Shown here: positions 5,714 through 29,735 of the stretch, in pieces
Layout of the letters: the number at the start of each line of letters is the position of its first letter
Position numbering within the stretch: the stretch's first letter is position 1
NCBI GenBank assembly: GCA_947176035.1
Contig: CAMWPJ010000009.1
Span: 1 to 33,629 of the forward strand
Origin: an uncultured Clostridia bacterium
GTDB taxonomy: Bacteria > Bacillota > Clostridia > Oscillospirales > Acutalibacteraceae
DNA: 33,629 nt
Direction of reading: 5' to 3'
The notes under the pieces: model-generated
The model's database searches: none
What the model saw: the letters and a program-made list of their open reading frames with translations, nothing else
Told to the model about the DNA's origin: nothing
Translations under genes and position numbers: made by a program

Positions 5714-5763
5714 AAATTATTGTTTGGTGTAGTAAGCAGTAATGAGGAAATGCGTATTTAGAG
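5714..5763 (+). repeat. Partial copy of the MITE-like element end
   Basis: These 50 bases match the reverse complement of 28886-28935 at 44 of 50 positions, including the terminus AAATTATTGTTT and the last 20 bases up to TTTAGAG. The copy lies between the permease stop and the acetyltransferase start. Its end, with the next shared base, supplies the GAGG ribosome binding site 6 bases before the ATG at 5771. The rest of the element is absent here, so it is a truncated or deletion-derived remnant. Confidence 0.75.
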
Positions 5764-5770
5764 GTATAAT

Positions 5771-25244: not shown

Positions 25245-25289
25245 TCTGCGGAATTTTTGTTGTAGGTTGATTGCATGCTAAACTATAAT

Positions 25290-26945
25290 TTAATGTGTTA
25301 CTTTCTTTCTTAATACTGCAAATGCAAAGATTATAAACGTTACAGCGAATGATATACCGGCAGTAAATATTAATATATTTGTTGTATTACCTGTCGGCGG
25401 AGATTTTTTCACTGCGGATGAGTTGATGCTTGTAGTTGTCTTTTTTATAGATGTTATTGCAAGGAGGCTGTCATCTACCGGAATAATGTCTTGCTCACTG
25501 TTTGTTCCGATGAACTGTCCAACACCTGTTTCTTTTTCAATGCTGTCGATATCAAGCGATGTGCTTGTTGTGGCTAGTGTTGCAAGGAATTTTGTAGCTT
25601 CTGAATCATACCAAAAATCAACATGTCTTACTGCTTTCACAAACCATGTGTTGTCAGGGAATAGACAGGTCGATGCGTCAATAATTCCATCTGCAGATAC
25701 ATATTTTCCATTCGTATCAAGTGTATTTCCAAAATCTGCTACTGTTGCACCTACTGATGCAAGCTCAGTATCAATAAGATAGTCAGTCTGCTTTGCATAT
25801 GCAGATGTAACAGGTATACCCGGAATGCCATAGTTTGCAATTATTGCAATGTCAACGCCTTTGTTTTTTAGCTCTGTAAGATTTGATTCAAGTCTGCCCT
25901 GTACATAGTGATAGCGAACAATTTTATCATAAAGTCCGCTTGATGTGTCAAGAAAACCGATATCACTCATAGCGTTTACTGCATCGTAAAAATCATTATA
26001 AGGCAGAAATTCCCACATTGCTGGGAGTGTTCCAAGCGGTGCCAACACATCATTATAAACCTTATCTACAAGCTCGGGATCTTCGACAACATCATTAAGA
26101 TAGTCACAGAGATTACCTACATAATCTTCCATAAAAGCAATCAAGAATTTTATACCTGTTAAATTTGTATCAGGACTCTTATAATTGAGAGTGAAGGCTC
26201 TGAGAAAATCCATTATAATTTCCTGATCAAAAATAAAATCCTTTTTCAAAACCTTTGTGACATTAACACCGTTAAAAGCACCATTTATAAACACAAGGCG
26301 CTCAATATCGTTTTTGTCCTTATAAGCATCAATATATGCTGCTGCTACAACTGTTCCCTCTGAGGCACTTACAATTGTTACCTTGCTTTTTCCGGTCTGT
26401 GCCTTAACTCCATCAATAAATGTGTTAAGCTTTTGTGCGTTTTCGCAGGCATCAAGTCGCCAGTCATAGTTAAACGCAAATACATTTTCAGCACCTATTA
26501 CATTGCATATCTGTTTAGCAATTGCAGGTTCGTGGGATGATGGATCCTCAATATATCCGGGATGATTTGCAAGACTGTCAGTCCAATAATTTTTTATGCC
26601 CACATTGTTTGTTGTGTTGCCGTTTTCGTCACAGGCAATGTCAACATATGGCGACATGAAGTCAGCTATTGCATCAATTATTGCCTCGGGACTTCCTCCA
26701 TTACCGCTTGCAGCCTGAAGCAGCATTGTGAGCAGTCCGCCTGTTCCGAGGATAGAGGCGATATTAAAGCCCTCTACAGGGAGTTCTTCGTCGGTATTGG
26801 GATTGTGATATAAACCTGAGCCACCCATACCGTGAATCATAATAACAGGAGTGGTGCTGTTCTTTGCAAATGCAACAGAAACTGTGGAAAGGAGCATTAC
26901 CAGTGCAAGTGCAAAGCATAAAATTGCCTTGAAATACTTTTTCAT
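25290..26945 (-). CDS. Surface-anchored LCAT-like alpha/beta hydrolase (lipase)
   Basis: This is a probable extracellular lipase or acyltransferase. A signal peptide covers residues 1-27 (cut after SVAFA). The hydrolase fold has the oxyanion-region IHGMGGSGL (37-45), the LCAT-type FNYDWRLD (158-165) and a nucleophile elbow SASEG with Ser195, where the first Gly of the usual GxSxG is Ser. Candidate His for the triad lies near VRHVDFWY, close to the C-terminus of the domain. The C-terminus has a linker, SPPTG (515-519), a hydrophobic segment and RKK, the layout of a sortase or membrane anchor with a variant motif. The substrate is unknown. A strong promoter precedes it. Confidence 0.8.
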   Translation of the reverse strand: MKKYFKAILCFALALVMLLSTVSVAFAKNSTTPVIMIHGMGGSGLYHNPNTDEELPVEGFNIASILGTGGLLTMLLQAASGNGGSPEAIIDAIADFMSPYVDIACDENGNTTNNVGIKNYWTDSLANHPGYIEDPSSHEPAIAKQICNVIGAENVFAFNYDWRLDACENAQKLNTFIDGVKAQTGKSKVTIVSASEGTVVAAAYIDAYKDKNDIERLVFINGAFNGVNVTKVLKKDFIFDQEIIMDFLRAFTLNYKSPDTNLTGIKFLIAFMEDYVGNLCDYLNDVVEDPELVDKVYNDVLAPLGTLPAMWEFLPYNDFYDAVNAMSDIGFLDTSSGLYDKIVRYHYVQGRLESNLTELKNKGVDIAIIANYGIPGIPVTSAYAKQTDYLIDTELASVGATVADFGNTLDTNGKYVSADGIIDASTCLFPDNTWFVKAVRHVDFWYDSEATKFLATLATTSTSLDIDSIEKETGVGQFIGTNSEQDIIPVDDSLLAITSIKKTTTSINSSAVKKSPPTGNTTNILIFTAGISFAVTFIIFAFAVLRKKVTH

Positions 26946-28105: not shown

Positions 28106-28586
28106 CGGGGCAGGTAAGTCTATACTTGCCAAAATGTTTGGTGAGCATTATGATATACCTGTTTTGCATCTGGATAAAGTGCAGTTTTTGCCTAACTGGA
28201 AGATACGTGACGAGCAGGAGAAAAGGAAAATTGTTTTTGATTTTATGCAGCAGCAAAACTGGGTTATCGATGGTAATTATTCATCACTGCATAAAGAAAA
28301 AAGGCTTGAACAGGCAGATATAATAATTATTCTTTCCTTTAACAGATTGTTTTGCTTTAAATCTGCTTTGAATAGATATTTTGAAAATAAAGGGCATACT
28401 CGTCCCGATATGGCAGATGGCTGCAATGAAAAGTTTGATTTGGAATTTGCTTTGTGGATATTGTTTTGGGGAAGAACGTATAAGTGCAGAAAAGATTATA
28501 AGAAAGTGTATAATAAATACAGGTCTAAAACCTTGTGGTTTACAAACCGCAGACAGGTTATTGATTATGTGGATTCTTTGAAATAA
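28080..28586 (+). CDS. FlaR-like P-loop kinase (topology modulation protein family)
   Basis: The 168-residue protein has a P-loop at residues 7-14 (GYSGAGKS) and adenylate-kinase-like features: an LDKVQFLPNW segment and the WVIDGNYSS segment. It matches the DNA topology modulation protein/FlaR-related family, whose biochemical role is poorly defined. The ATG at 28080 lies within the last codons of the AraC-type regulator gene, so the two are probably translationally coupled; the ribosome binding site is weak. In-frame upstream sequence would be an N-terminal extension without P-loop homology. A hairpin follows at 28621. Confidence 0.82.
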   Translation: MKIAVLGYSGAGKSILAKMFGEHYDIPVLHLDKVQFLPNWKIRDEQEKRKIVFDFMQQQNWVIDGNYSSLHKEKRLEQADIIIILSFNRLFCFKSALNRYFENKGHTRPDMADGCNEKFDLEFALWILFWGRTYKCRKDYKKVYNKYRSKTLWFTNRRQVIDYVDSLK

Positions 28587-28620
28587 TTGAAAAATAATAT
28601 AATATGTCTTATAAAATACT

Positions 28621-28650
28621 AACCCTCTGCTCATAATAAAGCAGAGGGTT
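28621..28650 (+). terminator. Hairpin after the FlaR-like gene
   Basis: AACCCTCTGC (28621-28630) pairs perfectly with GCAGAGGGTT (28641-28650) around a 10-base loop. The following sequence is AT-rich rather than a clean T-run, since the MITE-like element begins immediately. It is probably the terminator of the AraC/FlaR unit, with its tail disturbed by the element. Confidence 0.65.
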
Positions 28651-28935
28651 AAATTATTGTTTAGAGTGCAATAAATCACCCATAACCGCACACGGGGTAA
28701 AACACAAACAATATGTTGCAATAACAATATAGAGCAATTTACAAATAACCCGTATAAACAACTCTAAAACATACGCAGGTATTGAACCAGCGTATGTTTT
28801 GCGTGCTTTTCGTCTTTTGCTCGGGGGGCAGTACCATCGTACAGCTCCCACTCGCAAAATACAAAATTTTGGGTAATTTCTCACCCTCTAAATACGCATT
28901 TCCTCGTTTTTGCGTACTACGCTAAACAATAATTT
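28651..28935. mobile_element. 285-bp MITE-like element upstream of sigG
   Basis: This 285-bp block is bounded by a 14-bp perfect inverted repeat: AAATTATTGTTTAG (28651-28664) and its complement (28922-28935). A T before and an A after extend it to 15 bp and give TA at both edges, as with IS630/mariner-type targets. Inside are three hairpins: an 11-bp stem with a 13-base loop (28766-28800), a GC-rich stem GGGGGC.GTAC/GTAC.GCTCCC (28824-28849), and GGGT/ACCC (28871-28886). A minus-strand open frame spans 28654-28884 but resembles no protein known to me and reads into the terminal repeat, so I do not call it coding. One end also occurs at 5714-5763. No transposase is present, and no other gene lies in 28587-28967. 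Confidence 0.72.
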
Positions 28936-28967
28936 ACTGTACATAAAATTAGAAAAGGAAGATTTAT

Positions 28968-29735
28968 GTGCAGTATACTAAAGTCGAAATTTGCGGAATC
29001 AACACAAACCAGCTCAAGGTGCTTAAGGAAAGCGAAAAAATGGAGCTTTTGCATAAAGCACACGCGGGTGACAAAGCAGCAAGAGATAAACTGATTGAGG
29101 GCAATCTTCGTCTGGTATTGTCGGTTGTTCAGCGCTTTGCCAATCGCGGTGAAAATATGGATGATTTATTTCAGGTGGGTGTAATAGGGCTTATTAAGGC
29201 GATTGATAACTTCAATCTTGACTTGGATGTTCGGTTTTCAACCTATGCGGTACCTATGTGTATCGGTGAAATTCGTCGGTTTTTGCGAGATAATAACGCA
29301 GTTCGTGTTTCACGCTCAATGCGTGACACTGCCTATAAGGCCATGCAGGTTAAGGAAAGGCTGATTAACGAGAATCAGAAAGAGCCGACTGTTGAGGAAA
29401 TTGCAAAGGAGCTGGGAGTGAAAAAGTCGGATGTCGTTCTTGCACTCGAGGCAATTGTTGATCCCGTATCGCTCTATGAGCCTGTTTATTCCGATGGCGG
29501 CGATACTATATATGTTATGGATCAGGTTGGCGACAGCAATACCGATACAGATTGGATAGACGAAATTATGATTAAGGATGAAATATCAAAGCTTGATGAT
29601 AGGGAACGAAATATTATGTATCTTCGTTTTATGCAGGGCAAAACGCAAATGGAGGTTGCAAAAGAGGTTGGAATATCCCAGGCACAGGTATCCCGCCTTG
29701 AAAAAAATGCACTTAAACGAATAAAAGGACAATAA
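28968..29735 (+). CDS. sigG: Sporulation sigma factor sigma-G
   Basis: This is a late forespore sigma factor that directs RNA polymerase to forespore genes. The 255-residue length and the N-terminus TKVEICGINTNQLKVL are typical of SigG. Region 2 contains EGNLRLVLSVVQRFANRGENMDDLFQVG and the block FSTYAVPMCIGEIRRFLRD. Region 3 includes VRVSRSMRDTAYKAM, and region 4 includes LDDRERNIMYLRFMQGKTQMEVAKEVGISQAQVSRLEK. The GTG start has AAAAGGAAG about 6 bases upstream; an overlapping ATG two bases earlier is out of frame. The usual sigE/spoIIGA neighbours are absent, and a MITE-like element sits 32 bases upstream where the promoter would be expected. Confidence 0.95.
   Translation: MQYTKVEICGINTNQLKVLKESEKMELLHKAHAGDKAARDKLIEGNLRLVLSVVQRFANRGENMDDLFQVGVIGLIKAIDNFNLDLDVRFSTYAVPMCIGEIRRFLRDNNAVRVSRSMRDTAYKAMQVKERLINENQKEPTVEEIAKELGVKKSDVVLALEAIVDPVSLYEPVYSDGGDTIYVMDQVGDSNTDTDWIDEIMIKDEISKLDDRERNIMYLRFMQGKTQMEVAKEVGISQAQVSRLEKNALKRIKGQ

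Follow-up and report, generated by a model that had tools for sequence, protein, structure and literature searches.

Stem-loop-replacing transposition was proposed earlier from the insertions of IS1272 in staphylococci. As described for this element, the inverted repeats of the target are replaced, and the model includes a branch in which the whole stem-loop is duplicated (PMC5678879). IS1272 and TnSha1 have likewise been described at terminators whose hairpin was partly deleted (PMC4923244). Hairpins are also known from the leader of the sporulation gene sigG. In Bacillus subtilis, a hairpin that occludes the ribosome-binding site lowers sigG translation up to 4-fold, and, as reported with that work, such hairpins occur in only 4 of 13 Clostridia representatives (PMC5942855).

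The locus considered here lies in a window of 33,629 nucleotides, the whole stretch of DNA that was analysed, from an uncultured Clostridia bacterium (contig CAMWPJ010000009.1). The genome of this bacterium (G000) comprises 2.155 Mb in 186 contigs; G080 denotes a sister species, and the genus referred to throughout is the Eubacterium coprostanoligenes group. Directly before sigG lies a 285-bp block that is given an even chance of being a non-autonomous chimeric mobile element within the sigG leader, in which the loop of an older palindromic MITE has been replaced.

The block before sigG and its copies

The block, its parts and its neighbours are arranged as follows.

28610..28638, plus strand: putative sporulation-type sigG promoter (TATAA, 17 nt, CATAATA)
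28620..28651, plus strand: terminator-like hairpin after the previous gene; the element's left arm now forms its T-rich tail
28651..28935, no strand assigned: whole element, 285 bp, one among many copies in its own genome
28651..28663, plus strand: left outer arm AAATTATTGTTTA, with T outside; also found on MITEs with unrelated interior
28664..28695, plus strand: left interior part, resembling the CAGACTGTCGATAAAG...CCACGCC end of the genus IS1182-type MITE (by eye, unscored)
28766..28800, no strand assigned: internal hairpin of the type A-tract, stem, loop, stem, T-tract; genus-wide, the stem sequence varies and the pairing is kept
28797..28871, no strand assigned: core conserved across the genus, including a long GC-rich hairpin (28810-28866)
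28893..28922, minus strand: right interior part, resembling the ...CTACACGCTG end of the IS1182-type MITE (by eye, unscored)
28923..28935, minus strand: right outer arm, the exact complement of the left arm, with A outside
28935..28975, plus strand: predicted hairpin of the sigG leader, undisturbed by the insertion; its loop holds the ribosome-binding site and its 3' arm the GTG start
28968..29735, plus strand: sigG, sporulation sigma factor (NF006071, 414 bits, cut-off 372)

The inverted ends (28650-28667 and 28919-28936) show 94% complementarity across 18 nt. Their outer 15 positions, counting the T/A edges, pair perfectly, as the original prediction of a MITE-like element had described. The further details of that description also hold. 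No ORF of at least 80 aa lies wholly within the element, which is thus without a transposase, and a minus-strand ORF (28284-28727) overlaps its left part. Three hairpins, one of them GC-rich, are found at 28766-28800, near 28810-28866 and near 28893-28917. The element adjoins the terminator-like hairpin at 28620-28651, which the original prediction took as the terminator of the previous gene, and ends at 28935, leaving 32 bases to the sigG start codon, GTG at 28968. Searches with Rfam 15 covariance models gave no match over the gathering score within the elements (the window stretch, four loci of the same genome and ten loci of relatives), and a known RNA family was dropped from consideration on that ground. 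A likeness of the interior to 5S rRNA or to the T-loop of tRNA was set aside as well, as it had no Rfam match and the position beside the TCGAT loop is paired, variously as C-G, T-A or T-G. Viral, phage and plasmid collections held no match to the element.

The block is present in many copies. Used as a query against its own genome, it gives 41 matches at E <= 1, with 21 below 1e-6, a figure that includes the match of the block to its own place in the window and counts one copy on contig C20 twice, for its two pieces. Full-length copies stand at 89%, 87% and 77% identity, alongside many partial ones. The true copy number may be higher because several copies stop at contig ends, or lower if halves pair up; L004 and L006, and likewise L009 and L014, lie together in G075 and are possible halves of one copy. 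The end pattern, allowing two mismatches at most, occurs 41 times in the genome as against five times for a reversed-pattern control, and the repetition of the block is far beyond chance. Compared over aligned positions without gaps, the window copy shares 94-98% identity with L002, L004-L007 and L009, 93% with L008, 89% with L003 and 82% with L010. As would be expected of a MITE, these are many copies with common ends and no transposase gene; they lie in both orientations at unrelated sites, some of which are empty in relatives, and the proposal of a mobile element stands.

A further reading is a conserved sigG leader or riboregulator in place of a mobile element; a conserved leader had been named as the alternative should the sequence prove single-copy or confined to sigG. 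In keeping with this alternative, the block is structured, and it occupies the corresponding sigG site in the sister species G080, whose sigG is 91% identical. The gene was detected in 73 of the 80 genus genomes, the window's own included, and among the 30 sigG loci read only those of G000 and G080 have the element, the other 28 being without a match. With many copies at unrelated sites, the alternative is refuted by copy number and retains hardly any probability.

Several lesser copies were observed in passing. A 51-bp remnant in the window (5714-5764), 88% identical to element positions 235-285, has a transporter permease-like ORF on one side and a GNAT-like ORF on the other, both named by eye; its site in G080 has a different MITE interior in the 158 bp visible. 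A lone end-like sequence with two mismatches (25275-25291) is situated at the 3' end of a minus-strand ORF of 551 aa, close to a hairpin whose arms read TGCCGTAACG and CGTTACGGCA. The degenerate copy L010 begins, at position 1501 of its locus, at the 3' end of an RNase P RNA gene (RF00010, 277.7 bits, match 1167-1502), where a terminator is expected.

Outer arms and interior as two layers

The same arms are found on unrelated interiors. Six other elements of the window's genome, about 100 to 241 bp long, are bounded by AAATTATTGTTTA arms and enclose quite different interiors, most with small palindromes, and such arms on MITEs of other interior also occur in G080, G081 and G024. Among 80 genus genomes, the window's own included, 19 match the arm pattern with at most one mismatch: 80 times in G080, 30 in G081, 28 in G000, seven in G024, and one to four times in each remaining genome. 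The perfect terminal repeats of the original prediction are real, but they appear to be the outer 13-bp, T/A-flanked arms of an older palindromic MITE whose inside has been replaced.

A duplication of a TA target, which had been named as something that would support a MITE, is likely, although its support is indirect. T stands outside 85 of the 96 distinct ends in the loci scanned. When joined flanks were aligned to empty sites in other species (n=9), a single TA was seen in two cases (L007 in G075 and L069 in G096); the other seven were gapped or ambiguous (L007 in G081, L065 and L079 in G075, L079 in G062, L002 in G096, and two composite sites in G075). These same observations are what would favour an ordinary MITE of a TA-targeting transposase of the IS630/Tc1-mariner type, with the finished 285-bp form transposed to each site. 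This explanation is considered unlikely. No DDE_3 (PF13358) protein was found in any of the 80 genus genomes, own included, where the same search finds it in 3 of 14 control genomes, and an IS630/Tc1-mariner partner for the outer arms was rejected on this basis. No transposase for the outer arms was found, nor was an autonomous element with AAATT ends recognised in the stretches fetched from G024, G081 and G080, with ORFs listed for L253 and L256. Two further structures of G080 were observed in passing. L303 (G080:C278:4400-6300) has a 948-bp insert where G000 has a 195-bp MITE; the insert shows ORF-like stretches, one recognisable AAATT end and no obvious transposon. L265 (G080:C150:500-3000) is a 488-bp composite within the same AAATT arms, in which the left part of another MITE is joined to the window-type interior.

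The interior has a distribution of its own. With at most 12 candidates per genome scored, the core (28797-28871) has matches in 24 of the 36 other genomes searched from the genus and in none of the 23 from other families, and the core matches read in relatives are without the AAATTATTGTTTA arms. Among the matches listed are Eubacterium coprostanoligenes ATCC 51222 and many MAGs (Eubacterium, Clostridium, Ruminococcaceae), named records that may omit the window's own genome. The interior resembles a different MITE, present across the genus. Arms and interior are regarded as two layers because the arms bound unrelated interiors and the core occurs elsewhere without them.

From the loci read, 136 distinct core copies were collected, those of the window's genome included. 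A match to both left and right ends was present in 66, from which one empty stretch was dropped to give a set of 65; the other 70 were left out. The element in this set runs from CAGACTGTCGATAAAG to CTTTTTCTACACGCTG, with a length of 263-298 bp in 63 cases and of 322 and 333 bp in two. Its internal hairpin takes the form of an A-tract, a stem, TCGAT, a stem and a T-tract. A hairpin of some kind is found in 127 of the 136 copies, with 83 distinct stems and a TCGAT loop in 74. Stem pairing reaches 97.5%, a figure raised by the choice of 90 copies (55 distinct) that had a fitting loop and no fewer than 11 paired positions out of 15, as compared with a mean of 67.1% and a maximum of 71.6% for shuffled arms; this shuffle among copies leaves their relatedness in, and the many stem sequences are the stronger point. 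The hairpin of the window copy has a T-tract of only 4 and is not called a terminator by the scan, so that its role as a strong terminator in the sigG leader was discarded. In one open-access library, no paper treating both Eubacterium coprostanoligenes and miniature inverted-repeat elements turned up, nor did any fitting account of concerted evolution among bacterial MITEs.

Hairpin targets in the genus and a proposed replacement of interiors

The IS1182-type MITE takes hairpins as its target and duplicates them. Exact direct repeats of 18-32 bp, all different, flank 30 of the 65 genus elements, and a stem of at least 6 pairs lies within 27 of these 30. When right flanks were shuffled among elements (200 shuffles), the mean number of such repeats was 0.015 and the maximum 1. 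The same stem stands on both sides of 45 of the 65 elements (30 with identical loops, three with exactly inverted loops and 12 with other loop differences); a further seven were classed as stem-differing, and 13 are without a hairpin on one or both sides. Given the repeats at 30 and the common stems at 45 of the 65, the genus element sits at terminator-like hairpins, often with the whole hairpin on each side. Insertion at a stem-loop with its duplication is thus observed in the genus relatives, and for the window's genome replacement would be the outcome. The exactly inverted loops, left as compared with right, are those of L146, L196 and L163, and a few others look inverted with mismatches.

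The ends of the genus MITE are like those of an IS1182-family insertion sequence. An IS1182 transposase gene (NF033551), which partly reads as N, is present in G023, bounded by CAGCTTGTCGAAAAAG and GTTTTTCTACAGACTG, and the ends of the genus relatives lie within 2-4 mismatches of 16 of the ends of this gene. The gene abuts a hairpin on its left; a duplication is not visible because the contig stops at the gene's right end. In G005, an IS1182 fragment begins with CAGACTGCTGATAAAG directly after a hairpin. Matches to the transposase occur in 3 of the 16 genomes searched, two of them over the cut-off, and the other 13, G000 and G080 among them, have none; PF13751 likewise finds nothing in the window's own genome. 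The ends of the window element show a diverged resemblance to the IS1182-type ends, as judged by eye.

Differing interiors are found at the same sites of the two sister species. The flanks of G000 elements were sought in G080 in two sets, the first of 10 sites, of which L003 was not found, and the second of 18 flanks from 13 loci. In the second set L004, L005, L008, L009, L012 and L017 were readable, L016 lay at a contig end, and L003, L006, L013, L014, L018 and L067 were missing or only partial. Sixteen sites, namely sigG and 15 others, could be read in both species, and all carry MITE-like sequence in G080. The window-type interior is present in G000 at ten of them: sigG, L002, L004, L005, L007 (with an internal deletion), L008, L009, and the fragments L011, L012 and L017. 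Only the sigG site among these ten has a window-type interior in G080. Four of the other nine were fully read in that species (L002, 465 bp; L007, 123 bp; L012, 148 bp; and L011, where the piece of MITE lacks recognisable AAATT ends), and five were read as far as a contig end (L005, 208 bp; L017, 158 bp; L008, 107 bp; L009, 57 bp; L004, 39 bp). The G080 stretches of these nine sites contain no match to the core or element beyond about 21 bp of arm. The 39 bp seen at L004 may be part of a composite resembling L265, in which the core is present; the end visible at L004 is also the end of L265. The remaining six of the 16 are of the hairpin type in G000 and G080 alike. Four of them (L065, L069, L075 and L082) have another interior or another length in one species than in the other; L077 is similar in both (100 and 127 bp), and L079 is a close match in the 94 bp readable. 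Two points of this comparison weigh against a replacement of interiors: the G080 side was readable in full at four of the nine sites, and few arm variants are common by site to both species (L009, L075).

The comparison bears on several explanations at once. Sites of similar copies that are already filled by other MITE sequence in G080 argue further against transposition of a finished TA-targeting MITE to each site. Most copies of G000 look younger than the species split, because paralogues are 94-98% identical as compared with 86% between the window copy and the sigG-site copy of G080, and their sites look older than it. Younger copies at older sites are predicted by interior replacement, and gene conversion predicts the same.

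The mechanism that would account for the block has two steps. In the first, a palindromic MITE with AAATTATTGTTTA arms, targeting TA, would have inserted between the sigG promoter and the ribosome-binding site, probably in the common ancestor of the window's species and G080. In the second, an IS1182-family MITE may have taken that palindrome as its stem-loop target, replacing the loop and leaving the 13-bp arms, in the manner of the stem-loop-replacing transposition of IS1272. We infer both the replacement and its enzyme, no gene for which was found in the window's own genome. Somewhat short of an even chance is given to the broader proposal that one IS1182-type MITE family has two outcomes, duplicating terminator hairpins in most of the genus and replacing the loops of older MITEs here. 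If so, resident MITEs would have been overwritten at existing sites, the sigG leader included, and new sites would not have been invaded.

The main rival, a possible explanation held to be rather doubtful, attributes the swapped interiors at old MITE sites to ectopic recombination (gene conversion) between copies with common arms of 13-20 bp. The fusion of arms with an IS1182-type interior would then have happened once. The four of six hairpin-type sites that differ between the species favour this rival. Their differences are unexplained by IS1182-type replacement, so another recombination process also acts; and because hairpin-type sites change interior too, recombination among copies could explain everything, which is the chief weakness of the replacement mechanism. 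The junction between arm and interior falls at the same place in the well-preserved G000 copies, mostly 93-98% identical to the window copy, as a single fusion followed by copying would also give. Weighing against gene conversion, the common arms are very short for homologous recombination, and no tracts reaching into the flanks were noticed in an unsystematic look.

The sigG leader and comparison with known systems

The gene before sigG encodes a protein similar to DNA topology modulation proteins (NF005576, 202 bits, under the cut-off of 224), and sigG itself scores 405 bits with TIGR02850, the second SigG model, short of the 457 that this model requires. Upstream of the element lie TATAA (28610-28614) and CATAATA (28632-28638), the latter a promoter-like -10 in the loop of the hairpin at 28620-28651. 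This pair is presumably a SigF/SigG promoter, judged by the consensus sequences. A -10-like CAATAMTA or CATAMTA is present in 28 of the 30 sigG upstream regions, motifs short enough to be possible by chance in AT-rich DNA, and by eye TATAA often stands about 16-17 nt upstream of it. The placement of the pair appears to recur in relatives, on a count made without a control: it lies 336 bases before the start in the window, or 51 once the 285 bp are subtracted, and the range in relatives is 39-109. In several relatives, a promoter-like -10 was also seen by eye within the loop of the terminator-like hairpin that follows the upstream gene, with differing stems, which suggests a sigG promoter embedded in a terminator.

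The element lies between the promoter-like pair and the start-codon hairpin (arms 28935-28947 and 28963-28975), a similar form of which is possible in about 20 of the 30 orthologues, as judged by eye. Its insertion would have lengthened the 5' leader of sigG with structured RNA, to a predicted 323 nt or so instead of about 38 nt. The original prediction held that the element might disturb or supply sigG transcription. Supply is unsupported: the promoter-like pair that recurs in relatives is located before the element, and a sigma-70-type scan showed no excess of sites, with three found as against 2.2 expected. Disturbance is possible; the element would then act as a long structured leader. Since the promoter-like pair and the start-codon hairpin are left intact, the element may tune the expression of sigG and probably does not start it.

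For sporulation, the locus is a case in which, in two sister species, two recurring control features of the sigG leader are set apart by 285 bp. The E. coprostanoligenes group offers dozens of natural insertions with readable target hairpins, including duplication of the whole hairpin, the branch proposed in the published model. The locus further suggests that a mobile element can be overwritten in place by a second one, and any dating of MITE insertions by their interior would then go astray.

As in the B. subtilis sigG leader, the start codon is GTG and a hairpin, here left intact, lies close to the ribosome-binding site, although the leader there is 30 nt as opposed to the roughly 320 nt predicted here (PMC5942855). 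The long-TSD subgroup of the IS1202 family resembles the genus element in its target duplications of 16-28 bp, but its ends are TGT...ACA where CAG...CTG is found here, and its description gives no specific target for the subgroup (PMC10132070); as a source of the long duplications, IS1202 was rejected on account of these ends. Like bacterial MITEs, the element is short, non-coding and multi-copy with inverted ends (PMC10969869). Unlike them, its arms and interior seemingly derive from different elements, and its interiors differ at sites common to sister species. A further likeness is to the IS1272/IS1182 family, in which the target is a stem-loop, often a terminator (PMC5678879, PMC4923244), and the IS1182 transposase gene of the genus has similar ends. 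In contrast to that family, the element here spans only about 275-300 bp without a transposase, duplication of the hairpin is the common outcome in the genus, and the replaced target in the window's own genome would itself be a MITE.
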